Positions 8,280-26,870 of a stretch of 26,870 nucleotides of DNA are shown here, one piece after another. Below the pieces are notes generated by a model that ran no database searches, had not been told where the DNA came from, and saw only the letters and a list, made by a program, of their open reading frames with translations. The position numbers were made by a program, and so were the translations under genes. Where the stretch lies: assembly GCA_026002305.1 (NCBI GenBank), contig BOBI01000010.1, positions 1 to 26,870 of the forward strand, written 5' to 3'. Source of the DNA: Spirochaetia bacterium. Lineage in GTDB: Bacteria; Spirochaetota; Spirochaetia; Treponematales; Breznakiellaceae. Position 1 is the first letter of the stretch. Every line of letters begins with the position of its first letter.

Positions 8280-11200
8280 ATGAAATCTTTTGTAAAGATA
8301 GCTATTTCCTTTGTGCTGTTGACCGCACTTTTTACCAACTGTAAGAAAAAAAACAGTTCCGGCAGCGGCATAGACAGCTTGCTGACAAATTATGCCGGTA
8401 ATTATGATATTGAAAGCGATGCTGAGCTTGCCCCGGAAGATGCGATAAGGGCAGCTTTTACATTGGACTATCGTCCGCAGCGTCCGGAACCCGTGTCCAT
8501 TATGGAAACACTTACATCCGCAGAAACATCGGGCGCGGCGGCGGCAAGTTCGCAGGGGCAGCAAATTGGAGGCGGTCTTCGTTCTATTTCAAAATACAAA
8601 ACACGTTATTACGATCCAACTGCCGACAAAGAGCGCATTGCGGAAATTATCGCATTGCAGGCAAAAGCCAACGAGGTAATAAATCCGGAAAAGGATCCGG
8701 GTAATCTTACTGTTGTTGATTGGGGGCCGCGTAATTTTTTGTCCGCTTCCGTACAGCGGCCTTCCATGTATGTAATCTTTTCCCAGCCAATGGCGCCGCT
8801 TGCAAGTTTAAGCGTACAACAATCCGGCGAGTCGCCAATATTGCGCATAACACCGCCTGTAAAAGGGGTGTTTCGTTGGTATGGCACTTCGTTTTTAAGT
8901 TTTGAAGCCGACGAGCCTGTACAAAGTCAGCAGGTTTATACTATGACCGTTGCGGATAATGTCAAATCGCTTTATGGCAAAACAATTACAGGCATAACAG
9001 ATTTTACATTTGAGACAGAGCGTCTTTCAATGTCAGATATAATTCCCGGCGAGGAATTTAAGAAGAAAAACAATTTTCATTTTGGAACAAATGATGTACC
9101 GCCTGCGGCAGCGAAAGAAGTTACAATAATATTTAATTATCCTGTTGCGGCAAATGATATAAAAGATTTTTTACAGGTTGATACAAGCGGGGGAACAAAA
9201 AACTTTAGCCTGACACAAATTGATAAATTCAAAATGCTTGCAACGGTAAATGACAATATTGAGTTTAATACAACGGTGCGTATAACGTTAAAGAAAGGCG
9301 CAAAATCCGGCAATGGAACGCTTGGAACACAAGCCGATCAGAGCCGCACTTTTAATACACCGCGTACCTTTATAGTCCGCGAAATTGACAGGCAGTCTTC
9401 TTGGGGAAAATATAAAAATCTTGTTGATATTGATTTCTCATACCCTGTAGAAAAAAAGACTGTCAAAAACGCGATACTTACAGAACCCAAAATGGATATT
9501 ACCGACGACAATTTAGAAATATGGGGAAACACCGTGCGCCTGTATAATCTGCCTGTTACGTATAACCAGAGATACACAGTCAATATTAACGAAAATGTTA
9601 AAGATATTTACGGGCGTCCTCTTGAACGCGCGTACAATAAATTAATTGTGGTACCGCCGGAGCCGCCGCCGGAAGGTTCCGCGTATTTTATGGACAGCGG
9701 TAATGTTATGTTGGAGGCCGTTTTTAAACCACGTTTAATTTTTGAATATAAAAACAATACCGGAAATTCATGGTATGAGTTGACGTCAAAAAATAATCCG
9801 TTTGCTGATTATACAACAAAGACAGAAACATTTAATTTAAAATTGGGCGAAAAAAATTACCGTTATTTTGAAGACATCGATCTTACAAAATTCTTAAACC
9901 CGCAAAGAAAAGGATTTGTTTCATTTTATGCAAATATTGACCTGTTAAGCCCAGAGAAGGATTCTTCCACAGGAAAACAAAAGACGTATCAACGTGAAAA
10001 TAAACTTAACATTCAAGTTACCGATTTAGGAATTACGGTGCGTTATGCGTTTAACCGCGCCGTAGTTTTGGTAACAAGTATTTCAACAGGTGCGCCTGTG
10101 GAAGACGCATCTGTAAAAATCATATCACCGGTTGAGGCGAATGATCCGGCGGTTAGGGATATTTCGTCTATGAATAATTTCGGCAGCGCAAAGACCGATA
10201 AAAACGGGCTTGCAATTATTGAATTGAATGCCGGTGTTCTGCGTAATAATACAAATCATTCAAACGCTTGGTTTGACGAACCATTTATACTTGCGGAAAA
10301 AGACGGCGACCGCGCGGTGTTCGACCTTAATTATCCGGCCGCGCATAACAGCTGGGCTTATGATATTTACAGTCAGAACCCTCAGTATGCGGAGGTTGTA
10401 ACGCCTGTAACATTTATGTACAGCGACAGGGGGCTTTATAAACCCGGCGAAACAATAACATTTCGCGGTGTTGATAAAACATTAGTGCTTGGTATGTACG
10501 CTCCTTACAAAGGCGATTGGGAAGTGTCGCTTGAAACCGACGATTACTCAAACGAACACATTATTACAGTAGATGGAACAACAAGCGATTCGGGCGGGTA
10601 TTACAGCACAATTAGTATACCTTCCGATGTTACACCGGGCTCTTACAGGCTTGTGTATAAACGTATAAACGCGAATAAAACAACTGTGTCTGCAAATACA
10701 CCTATAACGATTGCATTCTTTGAACGGTTAAAATTTCAGGCTTCGATAAAAGCTCCTGTTGCGCCGGTAATTTCAGGCGAGGATGTAAATATGTCGCTTA
10801 ACGCTTCGTATTTATCCGGCGGCAGTCTTGCCGGAGCCGCTTATGAAGCGTCATGGTACCGTGAGCTTGCGGGGTTTCGCCTCAATACACCGGAGTTAAA
10901 AGATTATATTTTTGGGCCGCGCAATGCTTATGACGGTAAACGATATATAGGCGATTCAAAGGGAGCGCTTTCCGCAGCGGGCGGCGCCTCGCTTAGCCAA
11001 AAGACCGGCGGTGATTTAGTTACAGGCGCGGCATATTATTATTCTGTCGAGGCAAGCGTTACCGATATAAGCAATCAGATGATTTCCGCGTATCAATCGG
11101 CGCTTGTTCACCCTGCGCGGTTTTATATAGGCGTTGATAAACCTGCTTCGCGCGGCTTCCCGAAAGCCGGAGATGAAATATTATTTTCGTATGTAACCGT

Positions 11201-14200
11201 CGATCCTGCCGGAACGCTTCTTAACGGCAATGCGTTATTTTTAAAATCAGGTGAAGACTCAAATAAAATTACCGTTGAATTGATACGCGAAGATTGGAAG
11301 CGTGTTCAACAGCCGGGTGTAAACGGTTATGTATACGACCGTTATGAAAAAGAAAACATTACGGAAACTACTCAAAAAATTGACATAAAAACAAAAGGCG
11401 GCTTTAAAGTAAAACCTTTAAAGGCGGGCTTTTATATACTGCGTGTAACGGCATTTGACCGTGACGGCAGGAAAGTTCTTACGGAACGCAGTTTTTACGC
11501 GACAGGTTCGGATTGGGGTTATTGGAATATGAATAATGCCGCAGAATTGCGCCTAACGCCGGATCAAAGTGTTTACAATCCGGGTGATACGGCGCAGGTT
11601 CTTTTACAGAGCAGCCTTCCGGTAGGCAATTATTTAATTACAGTTGAACGCGAAGGCATATTTACACAGGAAGTGCGACGCTTTGAAGAAAGCGTCTCTA
11701 TAATTGACATTCCTATAGCGCGTAACTTTGTGCCGGTTGTTTATGTTTCGGTTGCTTCTTATTCGGTGCGTTCCGGCGAACCTGCACATACGTATGGAAG
11801 TCCGGACCTGGATAAACCAAAAGGTTATTACGGCGTAACAAAACTTTTTGTAAATCCGCGTGTGCGCGCGTTTAGTGTAAAGGTTGAAACAAACAAGAAA
11901 GTTTTCCGGCCCGGCGACGAAGTTACACTTACATTAACAGCGGAGCGCGACGGCCGTGCGTTGCCTAATGCCGAGCTGACACTAATGGCGGTTGACCGCG
12001 GTGTGCTTGATCTTATCAATTATCATGTACCAGACCCTATATCGTACTTCTACAGTGAAGAACGTTTTAATTTAAAAACCGCAGGCGGTGATTCACGCGC
12101 GTGGTTAATGGATCCCGTCACATACAGCGTAAAAAATCTTGAAGGTGGCGAGGGCGACAGTAAAATAGAAGAACGCGTCGACTTTAATCCTACCGCTGTG
12201 TTTGAGCCGTTTCTAATAACAGACGCAAAAGGTAAGGTGCAATGTACGTTTAAACTGCCTGACACGCTTACAACATACCGTATAACGATATTTGGTGTTC
12301 AGGGCGATCTGTTTTCGTTAAAGGAATCCGAAATTGCGGCACAAAATAAAATCAATGTTATGCAAATACAATCACGCCGTATGCGCGAAAGGGATACCGC
12401 GGAAACCGGTGTGCTGATAAGCAACTTGGATTCCGCCGCGCACAAGGTTACGGTTGGTTTGAGCGTTACGCCAAAAACCGAAAATAAAGATGATGATGAA
12501 AGCGGCATTATTTCCGCCGCCGGCGCCGCGTTTGTTGACGGCGATAGCAGCCGCACCCTTACCGTAAAAAGCGGCGAGAATGCAGTTGTATATTTTGATG
12601 TTGCGGCGGAGAAACACGGATTGGTAAATCTTGTATATACAATCACATCCGATATTTTAAATGAAAAACTTATCCAGCCTATTACAATAGAAAAACCGTA
12701 TATAAAAGAAACCGTAACGGCAACAGGGCAATTAACATCGGCGAATACAGGAACGGAAGGTCTTGTGCTGCCGTCGTGGGCAGATGACGGCATGGGCTCA
12801 TTAAAAATTACGCTTGACGCAACACGTTTAAGTTTACTGGAATCTTCAATCAATTATTTATTTCACTATCCTTATGGTTGTATGGAACAACGCAGCGCCG
12901 CAATTTGGCCTCTTGTTACATTTGGTGAATACCTAGATGATTTTGATTTAAAAAACGAAGTCTCCGATCCAAAAAAAGTAGTTGAAAATGAAATAAAATC
13001 ATGGGCAAAAGTGCAGTTGCCTTCCGGCGGCTTTCCCTATTGGCCCAGCGGTCTTAAAGCAGATAGTTATGTTTCGTTACGGATAGCGCATATCATCGCT
13101 ATCGCAAAACAAAAAAATTATCGTGTGCCTTCATCGTTAAACGTTGACAAACTAATAAGCTATCTTAACAGTGAATATCAAAAAAACTATCGTGAAGGCC
13201 GCGTATCTGCAGGGAATGATTATTTACAATCGTATATGCTCTATGTCTTTTCACTTTTAAAACAACCTGTTGATGCATCACGGTTAGCTGAAATATTAAG
13301 ACATGAAAAGGTTACGCCCGCCGCGGTTGCGTTTTGCGGCATGACCTATCTTAACATCGGACGTACAAACGAAGCCGCCGCTCTTACTTTGCGGAACCTT
13401 CTGCGGCCTACAACACGCGGCGTTGACCTTACAAGCGTAAATGATGATAACAGTTTCTATTACGGCGGCAAGATCGAAGAGTATGCTCTTATTTTGGAAT
13501 TCTTTGTGCGGCAATACCCTGGTGATGAAATTTGCACAAGGTTGTTATACACACTTTTAGAAAATAAGAGGAGCAGCGGTTACTGGACAAGCACCGCCGT
13601 AACGGTACGTGTTCTTTCTGCTGTAGATGCACTTATACGAGCCGACAATATAGAAAAAACAAATCTAACATCTAACGTTTCGCTTAACGGTACAGAGCTT
13701 TTTAACGGAAGTTTTTCCGGGCTTGCCGCGAAAGTGCAGACACAAACTTTTGATATTAGTGCATTTCCCATTGCGGGAATGCAGCGCGACAAGAGTCTGC
13801 CTTTAGTCTTTAGCAAAAAAGGCGCCGGCAATATTTATTGGACATCATCATTAACTTATGCGTTACCGCCTGAATTGCAGTCTGTCCGAGATGAGGGAAT
13901 CGGTGTGGCATTACAGATACTTGAACTAGACGACACTGAAATAAAAGATAGTGTGTTGGAAAGTGGAAAGATGTACCGCGCAAAAGTCCGGCTTGCATCT
14001 TCGCGCGATAGAAACTATCTTGCGCTGCGTGCTCCCATTCCGTCGGGTGCGGAAATACTTGACGCGGCATTTGTTACAACAACGGCACACGCAGCGGACG
14101 GTGGGCGCGACGAAAATGAAAAAGACGGCTATTATAATGGGCGCCATGTAAGCAATCAATTTATTTTTGACAACGAAGTGCAATATTTCTGGGATTACTT

Positions 14201-14342
14201 TGAAAAAGGCGAAACAACGGTTCAATTTTTATTTCGTGCCGCCCGCCGTGGTGTATTTCCCACCCCGCCGCTGCAAGCTGAATGTATGTATGAAGAAGAA
14301 ATATTTGGCCGTACCGCGGGCGCATTATATACGATAAAATGA
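8280..14342 (+). CDS. Bacterial alpha-2-macroglobulin lipoprotein with thioester
   Basis: A 2020-residue protease-trapping protein of the periplasm or cell surface. Residues 1–21 are a lipoprotein signal (positive start, hydrophobic core, lipobox LFTNC with Cys21, looser than the E. coli consensus as usual in spirochaetes). Then come Ig-like/MG repeats: SbsA-type Ig-like modules (about 130–250 and 370–460), an MG module starting near 718 (DRGLYKPGETITFRG), another near 1097, the A2M core near 1207–1340 (LPDTLTTYRITIFG), and a thioester domain with GCMEQ, Cys1534 and Gln1537, flanked by alpha-helical repeats to about 1800. An intact CxEQ lets the protein covalently trap attacking proteases. 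It overlaps pbpC by 4 nt (ATGA), the usual partner. Long antisense open frames inside it are shadows. Confidence 0.93.
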   Translation: MKSFVKIAISFVLLTALFTNCKKKNSSGSGIDSLLTNYAGNYDIESDAELAPEDAIRAAFTLDYRPQRPEPVSIMETLTSAETSGAAAASSQGQQIGGGLRSISKYKTRYYDPTADKERIAEIIALQAKANEVINPEKDPGNLTVVDWGPRNFLSASVQRPSMYVIFSQPMAPLASLSVQQSGESPILRITPPVKGVFRWYGTSFLSFEADEPVQSQQVYTMTVADNVKSLYGKTITGITDFTFETERLSMSDIIPGEEFKKKNNFHFGTNDVPPAAAKEVTIIFNYPVAANDIKDFLQVDTSGGTKNFSLTQIDKFKMLATVNDNIEFNTTVRITLKKGAKSGNGTLGTQADQSRTFNTPRTFIVREIDRQSSWGKYKNLVDIDFSYPVEKKTVKNAILTEPKMDITDDNLEIWGNTVRLYNLPVTYNQRYTVNINENVKDIYGRPLERAYNKLIVVPPEPPPEGSAYFMDSGNVMLEAVFKPRLIFEYKNNTGNSWYELTSKNNPFADYTTKTETFNLKLGEKNYRYFEDIDLTKFLNPQRKGFVSFYANIDLLSPEKDSSTGKQKTYQRENKLNIQVTDLGITVRYAFNRAVVLVTSISTGAPVEDASVKIISPVEANDPAVRDISSMNNFGSAKTDKNGLAIIELNAGVLRNNTNHSNAWFDEPFILAEKDGDRAVFDLNYPAAHNSWAYDIYSQNPQYAEVVTPVTFMYSDRGLYKPGETITFRGVDKTLVLGMYAPYKGDWEVSLETDDYSNEHIITVDGTTSDSGGYYSTISIPSDVTPGSYRLVYKRINANKTTVSANTPITIAFFERLKFQASIKAPVAPVISGEDVNMSLNASYLSGGSLAGAAYEASWYRELAGFRLNTPELKDYIFGPRNAYDGKRYIGDSKGALSAAGGASLSQKTGGDLVTGAAYYYSVEASVTDISNQMISAYQSALVHPARFYIGVDKPASRGFPKAGDEILFSYVTVDPAGTLLNGNALFLKSGEDSNKITVELIREDWKRVQQPGVNGYVYDRYEKENITETTQKIDIKTKGGFKVKPLKAGFYILRVTAFDRDGRKVLTERSFYATGSDWGYWNMNNAAELRLTPDQSVYNPGDTAQVLLQSSLPVGNYLITVEREGIFTQEVRRFEESVSIIDIPIARNFVPVVYVSVASYSVRSGEPAHTYGSPDLDKPKGYYGVTKLFVNPRVRAFSVKVETNKKVFRPGDEVTLTLTAERDGRALPNAELTLMAVDRGVLDLINYHVPDPISYFYSEERFNLKTAGGDSRAWLMDPVTYSVKNLEGGEGDSKIEERVDFNPTAVFEPFLITDAKGKVQCTFKLPDTLTTYRITIFGVQGDLFSLKESEIAAQNKINVMQIQSRRMRERDTAETGVLISNLDSAAHKVTVGLSVTPKTENKDDDESGIISAAGAAFVDGDSSRTLTVKSGENAVVYFDVAAEKHGLVNLVYTITSDILNEKLIQPITIEKPYIKETVTATGQLTSANTGTEGLVLPSWADDGMGSLKITLDATRLSLLESSINYLFHYPYGCMEQRSAAIWPLVTFGEYLDDFDLKNEVSDPKKVVENEIKSWAKVQLPSGGFPYWPSGLKADSYVSLRIAHIIAIAKQKNYRVPSSLNVDKLISYLNSEYQKNYREGRVSAGNDYLQSYMLYVFSLLKQPVDASRLAEILRHEKVTPAAVAFCGMTYLNIGRTNEAAALTLRNLLRPTTRGVDLTSVNDDNSFYYGGKIEEYALILEFFVRQYPGDEICTRLLYTLLENKRSSGYWTSTAVTVRVLSAVDALIRADNIEKTNLTSNVSLNGTELFNGSFSGLAAKVQTQTFDISAFPIAGMQRDKSLPLVFSKKGAGNIYWTSSLTYALPPELQSVRDEGIGVALQILELDDTEIKDSVLESGKMYRAKVRLASSRDRNYLALRAPIPSGAEILDAAFVTTTAHAADGGRDENEKDGYYNGRHVSNQFIFDNEVQYFWDYFEKGETTVQFLFRAARRGVFPTPPLQAECMYEEEIFGRTAGALYTIK

Positions 14343-16675
14343 ACAGGCAAGCCGCAGAGCTTAGTGGTATTAAACCGCACACAAAAAAAATAATACGGGT
14401 GTTTTTGGCCTTTGCCGTATTTTATGCTTTGTTGCGCCTAACGCCATATCCTGAATTAAAAGCTTTTTTAAACAGGTCATGCAGTACGCGCATTTTTGAC
14501 AGAAATGGCAATCTTGTTCAGGTTATTCCGGTAGAGAACGGTGTGCGCCGCGAGTATTTTAAAATTGACGAAATACCAAAAGAAATTGCCGGTGTTTTTA
14601 TTCAAGCAGAAGATTCGCGGTTTTATTCTCACTTTGGTGTTGATGTAATTGCTATTGCACGCGCCGGTTTTCAAAATATCACAACACACAGGCGTGTAAG
14701 CGGCGCTTCTACAATTACAATGCAGCTTGCGCGCATTATTGCCGCACAGTCCGCAAATCAACCAAGAAATGCTTTTGTCAGAAAACTGTTAGAAGCGGTT
14801 AACGCAGTACGCTTGGAGACACGGTTTGGTAAAAATCAAATATTAGAATACTACCTGAATTCACTGCCTTTTGGTTTTAGGACAGAAGGCGTTGCTTCGG
14901 CGGCAAAAAACTTTTTTTCATCCGATATGGATATGCTTACACCCGCGCAAATATTTTGTTTGGCGGTTATTCCGCGCCGTCCGGCCGCTTACAATCCTAT
15001 CAACAATCCAGAGGAATGTCTTAATGCGGCAAAAGAATTGGAAAAGAACTTTTCGGGAAAAACACAAAATAAAAAACACTATCCATTACTTACAGGTATC
15101 ACCGGTGATGACTGGCAATCCGCCGTTTCAAAAAGACGAGTTTATAATTATCCTATTCAGATGCCTCATCTTGTTCGTTATGTGATGAACAATCAAAAAG
15201 CAATTACACACTCAAAAAACGCGATAACTTCTATAAAATTAACAGCCGATCTTAATTTACAGCACTATGTAGAGGGATTAATTTCGTCTAACGTTAAACG
15301 TTATTATAACAAACGTATTAGTAATGGCGCTGTGCTGGTTATTGATAATAAATCAGGTGATGTATTGGCATGGGTAGGCAGCGCCGATTTTTTCAATGAA
15401 AGGGATCGCGGACAGATTGACGGTGTGCTTGCAAGAAACCAGCCCGGCAGCAGCATGAAACCATTTTTGTATGCGCTTGCGTTGGAGAAAGGTTTTTCTC
15501 CGGTTACGGTTCTTGCCGATGTGCCTGTCAATTTCGGAACAGAAGAAATATATATACCGCAAAATTTTAATAATATGTTTAACGGCCCTGTACTATTTCG
15601 TCATGCGCTTGCTTCAAGTTTAAATATACCGGCGGTGTATCTTTTATGGCGCTTGGGTATAAAGAACTACACGGACTATTTAATGAGGCTGCAATTTAAT
15701 TCATTACAAGGAGAGCGGGGCGCGGAAGCGGCAGGTTTGGGGCTTGCTTTGGGAAATGCGCCTGTAAGTTTATATGAGTTGGTTCATGCATTCAGTATAT
15801 TTCCTAATGACGGTAATTTAATTCCGCTTAATTTTGTTATATCAGGTTATGGTGAGGATAAAAGAAAAGCAAGAAATCCGATAGAACCGGATCGGGTAAT
15901 ATCATCTGATACGGCAAGAATTATTTGTTCGTTTTTGTCGGACCCGGCCGCTCGTGTTATCGCGTTTAGAAGTTCGTCAACATTTAACACGGGCTTTCCT
16001 GTAATTTTCAAAACAGGCACGGCAAATCAATATCAAAGTATTGCAGCGTTAGGGGCATCGCCTGAATATTCGGTTGGTGTGTGGATGGGCAACTTTAACG
16101 GGGAGACTGTTATCGGTAAGACAGGAAGCTCTGTTCCGGCATTAATTGCGCGCGATACATTAAAATATTTACACAAAGGCAAAGATGCCCATTCAGGAAC
16201 GCAAAATTTTAGTGAGCCGGAAAGTTATACCATGGCAAAGGTTTGCGCACTCTCCGGTATGCGCCCTGCGGAAAATTGCCCGTCAGTTCTTTATGAATAT
16301 ATTCCGGCAGATGAAAAAGATATACAGTACTGTACATGGCATAAAAATAGTGTAATTAATTATCCGGCGGAGTACCAAGGTTGGTTTATCGCGTCAAAAC
16401 GTGAAGGTACAATTGATAACAGCAATACCCCGCTTTCTGTAATTACACCCAGAGACGGTTTTATTTTTTTTGCAAACCCGCAGACGTTAGGCGATGACAC
16501 GATTCCTGTTGAAGTGATTGGAGGCAGCGAAGATCAACTAAATGTCTTTTATGACGATAAGCAGTTTACATATTACAGGCCGTTTAAATTTTTCCTGCCG
16601 TTGGAGAAAGGGGTACACAGTTTAACGGTAACAAATAATGATGAAGGTGAGACATTGTCTTTTACGGTTGAATGA
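14339..16675 (+). CDS. pbpC: Penicillin-binding protein 1C
   Basis: Bifunctional peptidoglycan glycosyltransferase/transpeptidase, 778 residues (E. coli PbpC about 770). A single membrane anchor lies at about 18–34. The GT51 domain shows the catalytic Glu91 in QAEDSRFYSHFGVD and the TITMQLAR motif. The transpeptidase shows SSMK (Ser371, Lys374), SLN in ASSLNIPAV, and KTGT with Lys558. The C-terminal ~90 residues form the Ig-like BiPBP_C domain typical of the 1C type. ATG 14339 overlaps the A2M stop. Genetic pairing of pbpC with a periplasmic A2M is widespread and suggests joint defence: protease capture at breaches and wall repair, although the mechanism remains a hypothesis in the field. Confidence 0.95.
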   Translation: MNRQAAELSGIKPHTKKIIRVFLAFAVFYALLRLTPYPELKAFLNRSCSTRIFDRNGNLVQVIPVENGVRREYFKIDEIPKEIAGVFIQAEDSRFYSHFGVDVIAIARAGFQNITTHRRVSGASTITMQLARIIAAQSANQPRNAFVRKLLEAVNAVRLETRFGKNQILEYYLNSLPFGFRTEGVASAAKNFFSSDMDMLTPAQIFCLAVIPRRPAAYNPINNPEECLNAAKELEKNFSGKTQNKKHYPLLTGITGDDWQSAVSKRRVYNYPIQMPHLVRYVMNNQKAITHSKNAITSIKLTADLNLQHYVEGLISSNVKRYYNKRISNGAVLVIDNKSGDVLAWVGSADFFNERDRGQIDGVLARNQPGSSMKPFLYALALEKGFSPVTVLADVPVNFGTEEIYIPQNFNNMFNGPVLFRHALASSLNIPAVYLLWRLGIKNYTDYLMRLQFNSLQGERGAEAAGLGLALGNAPVSLYELVHAFSIFPNDGNLIPLNFVISGYGEDKRKARNPIEPDRVISSDTARIICSFLSDPAARVIAFRSSSTFNTGFPVIFKTGTANQYQSIAALGASPEYSVGVWMGNFNGETVIGKTGSSVPALIARDTLKYLHKGKDAHSGTQNFSEPESYTMAKVCALSGMRPAENCPSVLYEYIPADEKDIQYCTWHKNSVINYPAEYQGWFIASKREGTIDNSNTPLSVITPRDGFIFFANPQTLGDDTIPVEVIGGSEDQLNVFYDDKQFTYYRPFKFFLPLEKGVHSLTVTNNDEGETLSFTVE

Positions 16676-22201: not shown

Positions 22202-22579
22202 CTATCCACGTTCATAGCGTGCCATGTTGGTGTGCGTTTCAAACACCTCCACGGCGTACAACAGCGAAGGATCGGCGCCATTGGCGGTAAGCTCGGCCTC
22301 GACACCCGTAAAAATAAATTGGGCAATGCGCTCCGCGCTGGGATCGCCTTTAAAAAACGGATTGTCGTTAAGGTTTGTATGGTCAAGATGACCGGTTACT
22401 TTTTTTAACGCACCCTTTAGCACGCCAAAATCCACAAGCATACCGCCCGAATCCAAAGTGCCGCCGTGAGCAAAAAGTCTGACACGGTAATTGTGCCCGT
22501 GAAGGTTTTCACACTTACCATGATAATGGCTTAAAAAATGCGCCGCTGCAAAATCTGTTTCAACACGTACTGTCCACAT
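22202..22579 (-). CDS. 6-pyruvoyltetrahydropterin synthase paralog, PTPS-III type
   Basis: T-fold enzyme of 125 residues. Zinc ligands His14, His27 and His29 are present; the active site reads KCENLHGHNY, with Cys23 followed by Glu24, and the LDHTNLND segment (Asp66/His67) and VEVFET glutamate complete the site. In PTPS-III proteins a glutamate replaces or accompanies the catalytic cysteine, and they turn dihydroneopterin triphosphate directly into 6-hydroxymethyldihydropterin, replacing FolB; this bypass is described for folB-less spirochaetes. Here folE, folK, folP and pab genes lie next door with no folB, which supports that role. QueD (queuosine synthesis) is the main alternative, but no other que gene is seen. 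No ribosome site precedes the ATG. Confidence 0.78.
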   Translation of the reverse strand: MWTVRVETDFAAAHFLSHYHGKCENLHGHNYRVRLFAHGGTLDSGGMLVDFGVLKGALKKVTGHLDHTNLNDNPFFKGDPSAERIAQFIFTGVEAELTANGADPSLLYAVEVFETHTNMARYERG

Positions 22580-25247: not shown

Positions 25248-25772
25248 CTAACAATCCAGATCGCTCATTTCAACAGACTTGTAAAACACAACGCCGCCGC
25301 GGTCGGCGCAGCCCGCTATTATTTCGTCTAACGGTTTGTTTTTAATTGCGCCGGAATTATAGACGTCGCGTAACGGCACCATAACAAAGGCGCGTTCAAA
25401 CATACGAGGGTGTGGAATGGTGAGAACAGGATTATCAGATTGCACATCATCATACAAAAGTATATCAAGATCGATGGTGCGCGGCCCCCAGCGGATAGTC
25501 CGCGTGCGTTCAAGATCATTTTCAATTTTGTGCAGTACATCTAAAAGTTTGTCCGGTTCAAGCGAAGTCCGCACACAGCAAACCATGTTCAGAAAAAAGT
25601 CCTGATCGGTATAACCTACAGGTTCTGTTTTATACATTTTTGAAAGCGCCGTTATACGCACCGCAGGATCGCCGTTAAGCAATTCAAGGGCGTGCGTTAT
25701 GTGCCGTTCCTTGCTGCCCATATTGGAGCCAAGCGCGATGTATGAAGTGTGTCCAAAGTCCGAATCATTCAT
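25248..25772 (-). CDS. folK: 6-hydroxymethyl-dihydropterin pyrophosphokinase (FolK)
   Basis: Transfers pyrophosphate from ATP to 6-hydroxymethyl-7,8-dihydropterin, preparing it for FolP. The 174-residue protein begins SYIALGSNMGSKERHI, has the KTEPVGYTDQDFFLNMV substrate loop and the signature RWGPRTIDLDILLYDD at 94–109; Asp101 and Asp103 bind Mg2+. Length and motifs are normal. No FolB domain is fused to it, in contrast to several other bacteria. ATG at 25770–25772, 16 nt after the folP stop; the ribosome site is weak, so coupling to folP is likely. Confidence 0.96.
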   Translation of the reverse strand: MNDSDFGHTSYIALGSNMGSKERHITHALELLNGDPAVRITALSKMYKTEPVGYTDQDFFLNMVCCVRTSLEPDKLLDVLHKIENDLERTRTIRWGPRTIDLDILLYDDVQSDNPVLTIPHPRMFERAFVMVPLRDVYNSGAIKNKPLDEIIAGCADRGGVVFYKSVEMSDLDC

Positions 25773-25788
25773 GGATGTATACTGCTTG

Positions 25789-26619
25789 CTATACTACGCG
25801 GGTCATAGCATCGGTCATGGCGGCAACACGTTTCATTGCTTTTGTGTCGTGGACGCGGACAACATCAACACCCGCAACAATTCCCACGGCAACCGCCGCC
25901 GCCGTTCCCTCCAACCTGTCATTAACCGGAAGATTCAGCACCTTGCCGATCATTGATTTACGCGATGGCCCTAACAGCACAGGCAGCCCCATTGATTGCA
26001 GCTCGGCAAGGCGGCGCATCGTTTCAAGATTGCCGTTTAAATCCTTGCCAAAGCCAATCCCCGGATCAAGCATAATAGCGTTATGTGCAACGCCGCCTTT
26101 TTCCGCAAGACGGACACTGGTTTTAAGAAATTCTTTCATCGACTCAATAATATCTTTTTTGTAAGTTTCGCCGTCTTGATTGTGCATAACGATAACACCG
26201 GCGTCAAATTCGCCGCAAATGGAGGCAAGCTCCGGCGCCCGCTGCAGCCCCCAAATATCATTTATAATGTGCGCACCGGCTTGCAGCGACTTACGGGCAA
26301 CTTCGGCCTTTGTCGTATCAATGGAAAGCGGAACCTTCAAAGTTGCAGAAAGCCTCTCGACAAGAGGCACCACCCGCCGTATCTCATCTTCGGCGCTGAC
26401 CGGCGTAAACCCCGGGCGCGTAGACTCGCCGCCGATGTCGATAATATCAACACCTTCGTCCACCATCTGCTGCGCACGCGCCGCCGCCCGCTCAATATCG
26501 GTATGACTACCGCCGTCGGAAAAAGAATCCGGCGTTGTGTTCAAAATCCCCATAATGTAGGTCTTTTGCCCCAGCGGTAAATCAAAATTCCTGCAATGAA
26601 AAACTTTGTTTTGTGCCAT
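25789..26619 (-). CDS. folP: Dihydropteroate synthase (FolP)
   Basis: Joins pterin pyrophosphate with p-aminobenzoate to form 7,8-dihydropteroate; target of sulfonamides. The 276-residue TIM barrel shows MGILNTTPDSFSDGG at 23–37, DIGGESTRPGF at 61–71, SIDTTKAEVAR, HIINDIWGLQ, MLDPGIGFGKD and GPSRKSMIG. ATG at 26617–26619 is chosen for the AAAGGGA site just upstream and because the family begins here; the frame stays open to 26844 only because it crosses the folE end in another frame. It starts 32 nt after the folE stop. Confidence 0.96.
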   Translation of the reverse strand: MAQNKVFHCRNFDLPLGQKTYIMGILNTTPDSFSDGGSHTDIERAAARAQQMVDEGVDIIDIGGESTRPGFTPVSAEDEIRRVVPLVERLSATLKVPLSIDTTKAEVARKSLQAGAHIINDIWGLQRAPELASICGEFDAGVIVMHNQDGETYKKDIIESMKEFLKTSVRLAEKGGVAHNAIMLDPGIGFGKDLNGNLETMRRLAELQSMGLPVLLGPSRKSMIGKVLNLPVNDRLEGTAAAVAVGIVAGVDVVRVHDTKAMKRVAAMTDAMTRVV

Positions 26620-26651: not shown

Positions 26652-26807
26652 TTATTGTTTTATGAGGAGTAGAGCCTCGGCCCTTAATGCCGCGTTCTCC
26701 GCAAAAGTGCCCCGGAAGTCCGACGTAACCGTCTTTGCGCCGGGTTTTTTCACGCCGCGCATCGCCATACAGAGATGCTCGGCCTCGACAATGATTGCCG
26801 TTCCGTG
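26652..26807 (-). CDS. folE: GTP cyclohydrolase I, C-terminal end (broken by an inversion)
   Basis: On the minus strand the last ~51 codons of FolE are readable: [18 protein letters not shown], then [18 protein letters not shown] and a closing [12 protein letters not shown], stop TAA at 26652–26654. The Cys in [11 protein letters not shown] is a zinc ligand of FolE. FolE makes dihydroneopterin triphosphate from GTP, the entry step for the folate genes that follow. Going upstream, family similarity stops at about 26800–26807; beyond this the minus strand no longer encodes FolE and an opposite-strand FolE piece begins. Homology, not a start codon, sets the 5' limit. Confidence 0.85.
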
Positions 26808-26870
26808 CGAACATCACCTGATGCCTTTTTTTGGGCAGGTTCATGTGGTCTATGCACCGCAGGACGGGCG
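26803..26870 (+). pseudogene. folE: GTP cyclohydrolase I, central fragment on the opposite strand
   Basis: From 26806 the + strand reads [20 protein letters not shown] and on to the window end. This is the conserved FolE zinc/catalytic segment (Cys and His of CEHH), which in an intact gene lies about 55 residues before the C-terminal piece found on the minus strand. The two parts therefore meet head to head near 26805 instead of running in one direction. The fragment is cut by the window edge. It is either a real inversion within folE or a chimeric contig end. Confidence 0.8.

Follow-up and report, generated by a model that had tools for sequence, protein, structure and literature searches.

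Genes at the Right End of the Contig

The window, i.e., the whole stretch of DNA analyzed herein, is the entire contig C10 (26,870 bases), and position 26870 is the physical end of this contig. The assembly to which it belongs (G000) comprises 352 contigs and 2,225,504 bases, with an estimated completeness of 64.5% and contamination of 0.14%. Reading leftwards from the right end, the minus strand carries the 3′ part of folE, followed by folP, folK, a pabB-type gene, a pabA/trpG-type amidotransferase gene, and a queD-type gene. The folE part (codons 135/136–186 and the stop codon) is located upstream of folP, where it is expected, and extends from 26652 to about 26807–26810. Its reading frame is clean from the stop codon at 26652 up to this boundary, beyond which the resemblance to FolE is lost. 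It matched PF01227 (GTP_cyclohydroI) at 26661–26810 (model positions 129–178, E 1.6e-13), above the curated cut-off. Its match to the NCBIfam folE model fell short of the full-length cut-off, as is normal for a partial gene.

A second piece of folE is located on the plus strand at 26806–26870. This tail of 61–65 bases corresponds to folE codons 76–96 in the opposite orientation, and it encodes a conserved 21-residue FolE stretch, from 26806 to the last bases of the contig, which we take to carry zinc and substrate ligands. PF01227 matched it at 26803–26865 (model positions 70–90, E 2.2e-6), again above the curated cut-off. Since both pieces score above the GTP cyclohydrolase I cut-off in Pfam, neither is a chance resemblance. 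These matches on both strands confirm the claim of the earlier note that folE lies in two oppositely oriented pieces at the right end. The plus-strand segment that the earlier note placed from 26806 onwards is indeed from folE; however, it is a short tail running to the contig end rather than a second gene.

A PF01227 profile search of the genome identified only these two pieces, both at the right end of C10. In total, 73 folE codons are present. Neither family nor DNA searches matched codons 1–75 and 97–134 anywhere in the assembly, and the 13 further matches in the DNA search were all short (14–27 bases, E 0.04 or worse). The earlier note estimated that roughly 55 residues were missing. This is about right between the two motifs that it quoted; however, the gap between the pieces is 38 codons (97–134), and codons 1–75 are also absent. 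The earlier note also suggested looking for an intact minus-strand folE in the same bin; no second or intact folE was found in the assembly by the family search, nor did the DNA search reveal one. FolE2 (PF02649), as a possible substitute, was also not detected in this genome. Since the assembly is only 64.5% complete, the absence of an intact folE or FolE2 is uninformative.

The neighboring genes folP (dihydropteroate synthase; 25789–26619, minus strand; TIGR01496, 299.7 bits, cut-off 162.6) and folK (25248–25772, minus strand; TIGR01498, 143.5 bits, cut-off 54.1) are intact, and folP, folK, the pabA-type gene, and queD all scored above the cut-offs of their models. The second half of the pabB-type gene matched PRK07546 models, while its pabB match was below the curated cut-off. 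The queD-type gene (22202–22579, minus strand) reads KCENLHGH, which is a CExxHGH motif. This motif is typical of PTPS-I/III enzymes that are able to replace FolB, and a search of this genome (64.5% complete) gave no match to FolB itself.

Gene Order in Relatives and Intact FolE Proteins

A folE match was present in 21 of the 195 genomes of the family (the present genome is counted in both numbers) and absent in 174. A folP match with at least 47% identity was found in 19 of the 20 folE-bearing relatives, and in all 19 relatives with both genes, folE and folP share a contig and a strand, with no more than 264 bases between them. In one of these 19 (G067), folE is cut by the start of the contig. 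The remaining folE-bearing relative, G023, retains just the beginning of folE at the edge of a contig, and another relative, G071, has a close folP match with no folE match. In the termite-gut Treponema MAG loci L005 and L006, an uninterrupted folE (199 and 186 codons, respectively) is located just before folP. The intact folE-folP-folK clusters of L005 and L006 have the same gene order, strand, and FolE family as C10; however, C10 retains only its 73 codons in two opposed pieces. As a separate observation, folP matches were more frequent in the family than folE matches (95 versus 21 of the 195 genomes). In 74 of these 95 genomes, the only folP match was a more distant one (22–45% identity), in a few cases close to the E-value limit, and folE matches were absent from all 74.

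As an alternative, folE may have been disrupted in the cell itself, by a genuine inversion or by a partial duplication in inverted orientation. The assembly contains neither an intact folE nor FolE2, and the 174 family genomes with no folE match suggest that its loss may be tolerable. However, with a completeness of 64.5%, absence says little. Furthermore, the contig stops after just 65 bases of rearranged sequence, the neighboring folP, folK, pabA-type, and queD genes all score above the cut-offs of their models, and other ends of the assembly show the same kind of fold-back (see below). We regard this explanation as highly improbable; nothing found in the present study favors a real inversion over an artifact. 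Similarly, it is very doubtful that an inverted partial duplication inside folE represents an early step in the loss of folate and pterin synthesis in a family in which most relatives have no detectable folE. The argument of the earlier note that a true inversion would deprive the cell of this folE is not decisive, because so many genomes of the family have no folE match.

The two pieces were compared with five intact FolE proteins selected from the 120 listed for the L006 query. Among these five, P0137 (FolE of Breznakiellaceae bacterium SP9) was the best overall match, with 47 of 52 residues identical in the minus piece (codons 135–186) and 18 of 21 in the plus piece (codons 76–96). The numbers of identical residues in P0139, P0121, P0128, and P0126 were 44, 36, 34, and 34, respectively, for the minus piece, and 17, 17, 16, and 18 for the plus piece. 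The offsets were the same in all five proteins, with the 38 codons 97–134 between the pieces. In all five, which are homologues and not the strain's own gene, the turning points are 59 codons (approximately 177 bases) apart. At the DNA level, the tail was 65–79% identical to the folE genes of the family relatives listed, and 59–79% identical over all 34 entries.

These comparisons bear on the source of the tail. It may have been derived from the folE of another spirochaete, through an intermolecular chimera or contamination. The tail comprises 65 bases of a conserved motif and does not allow a species assignment, P0126 (encoded on another contig) and P0137 both matched 18 of its 21 residues, and its DNA identity to the folE genes of the listed family relatives did not exceed 79%. 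On the other hand, a PQDG stretch is common to the tail, P0137, and P0139, these two proteins are likewise the closest to the minus piece, and the contamination of the assembly is given as 0.14%. Moreover, inverted chimeras generated by multiple displacement amplification (MDA) mostly join nearby segments (PMC1855051). A foreign origin of the tail is, thus, extremely improbable.

Anatomy of the Junction

In the minus piece, the FolE reading includes the His codon of the HGTA motif, which is also present in P0137, P0139, and FolE of the L005/L006 type. The first codon of the plus piece encodes the Cys of CEHH. Bases 26806–26807 are common to both pieces. The overlap increases to five bases (26805–26809) if the codon preceding Cys ends in G, as does the ATG in relatives, and the codon preceding His ends in CG. 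Therefore, two bases are certain when both pieces are read in this way, and up to five may be shared.

We also examined longer repeats as a basis for the junction. The only repeats touching the tail, within the last 1,371 bases, were two direct pairs of 13–14 bases with 92–93% identity, a size expected by chance. No inverted pair of at least 18 bases involved the tail, and no tandem repeats were present in the window. A junction via longer repeats was rejected on these grounds.

The short overlap is relevant to the possibility that two folE fragments became joined, with one of them reversed, at a step other than MDA, either through misassembly or as a chimera of the library or PCR. This would have the same effect on the contig. 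However, a de Bruijn graph cannot join sequences on an overlap of 2–5 bases unless a read carries the junction, and an overlap of this length is accordingly too short for such an assembler to have created the join by itself.

Inverted Copies at Other Contig Ends

Fold-backs were sought at 81 contig ends of the assembly (both ends of C1–C20 and C22–C41 and the start of C21) by searching up to 1,500 bases for exact inverted copies of the outermost 200 bases. An exact inverted copy of at least 30 bases was found at five of the 81 ends: the start of C40 (104 nt), the end of C6 (96 nt), the start of C4 (67 nt), the end of C37 (52 nt), and the end of C11 (36 nt). All five inverted copies start exactly at the terminal base of their contig, and the two copies are separated by 168–1285 nt. 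Two further inverted matches of 24 bases were detected, neither of which starts at the contig end. Fold-backs, thus, recur at the ends of this assembly.

Among 2000 internal pseudo-ends, no inverted copy was as long as 30 nt; two reached 20 nt, with a maximum of 24. The Fisher p value for this comparison was 8e-8, which is too small because overlapping pseudo-ends were taken as independent and were drawn with replacement from 21 sequences. As a second control, 100 stretches at contig starts (starts only) were obtained from G149, G148, and G008, and three that consisted mostly or wholly of N were dropped before counting. We took these three genomes to be MAGs because the values of their folE loci are the same as those of the named MAG loci L005, L006, and L009. 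None of the 97 usable starts reached 20 nt. This comparison is modest, with p values of 0.32 for the first 37 starts and 0.018 for all 97, after the addition of 60.

The right end of the window is included in the 81 ends, but not in the five, because its landing site lies beyond the contig. While the five self-fold-backs land within their own contigs, that of C10 is off the contig and is visible only through homologues. The inverted tails at the five ends (36–104 bases) are comparable in length to that of C10 (61–65 bases).

Direct terminal copies were found at the starts of C7 and C21 (127 nt each) and at the end of C39 (48 nt), indicating that not every odd end is inverted. Direct copies of at least 30 bases showed little difference between the present assembly (3/81 ends) and the first MAG starts (2/37, both off the last base). 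The first 126 bases of C1 and C2 are exactly the same. No overlaps of at least 30 bases between adjacent edges were detected among the 81 ends, with one shared start (C1/C2). The exact repeats of 126–127 bases at the starts of C1, C2, C7, and C21 suggest a graph assembly with k=127. As another observation, positions 1–148 of the window are 94% identical to bases 25–172 at the start of C3, and, thus, C10 and C3 both have this repeat at their starts.

These ends bear on a misassembly or non-MDA chimera in two ways. In its favor, the exact repeats of 126–127 nt would fit the kind of overlap left by a k=127 graph assembler. However, the fold-backs at five of the 81 ends versus none of the 97 MAG starts point to chimeric molecules. 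We consider a misassembly or non-MDA chimera to be unlikely.

A Probable Inverted Chimera from MDA

The right end of C10 very probably represents an inverted chimera from MDA, in which the true continuation of the contig was not recovered. This reading is favored by the geometry of the two pieces, the overlap of 2–5 bases, the position at a contig end, the absence of any other folE match, and the fold-backs at other ends. The fit of both pieces to one kind of folE, located beside folP as in all 19 relatives, was also counted in its favor. The earlier note had proposed an artifact, either an MDA chimera or a misassembly, and named a true inversion as the other possibility; the present results support an artifact, and geometry, overlap, contig-end position, and the other fold-backs favor the MDA form.

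We propose that, during amplification, synthesis of a plus-sense strand had passed through folP and into the 3′ part of folE when this strand was displaced at codon 135. Pairing over 2–5 bases would have brought its 3′ end onto codon 76 of another displaced strand nearby, also plus-sense, and extension from there would have run backwards and added codons 76–96 in reverse orientation. As the rest of folE was not recovered in this incomplete assembly, the assembler presumably extended the contig into the chimeric read and stopped there. We infer the amplification step, the single-cell origin, and the behavior of the assembler from these features. In a related study, single-amplified genomes of this family were prepared using Repli-g and SPAdes -sc (PMC13067680).

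In the study by Lasken and Stockwell (2007, PMC1855051), 406 of 475 MDA chimeras were inverted, and in 76.8% priming had occurred at no fewer than two complementary bases, with a maximum of 21; the distance between the joined segments was usually less than 10 kb. The end of C10 similarly joins two segments of one locus in opposite orientations, with a jump of approximately 177 bases and an overlap of 2–5 bases, within the range of 2–21 nt in that text. The same text describes that a displaced 3′ end may land upstream or downstream, whereas a hairpin or template switch lands upstream only; in this scheme, C10 corresponds to the downstream kind. Similar chimeras are also present elsewhere in the same genome, at five of the 81 ends. 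In contrast to the chimeras of that study, the C10 case is known from an assembled contig end alone and not from reads.

The folE gene of this genome should not be scored as lost or broken, but as cut by the contig end. The practical consequence is that the last 65 bases of C10 are to be trimmed. More generally, contig ends of this assembly (five of the 81 examined, by self-matching alone) need to be checked or trimmed before gene calling. Gene calls at the starts of C4 and C40 and at the ends of C6, C11, and C37 are suspect because the inverted copies begin at the last base.

Another Gene in the Window

A 2020-residue gene with bacterial alpha-2-macroglobulin domains is located at 8280–16675 on the plus strand, directly before a transglycosylase/transpeptidase gene. 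The pairing of alpha-2-macroglobulin with a transglycosylase/transpeptidase (PBP1C) also occurs in other bacteria.
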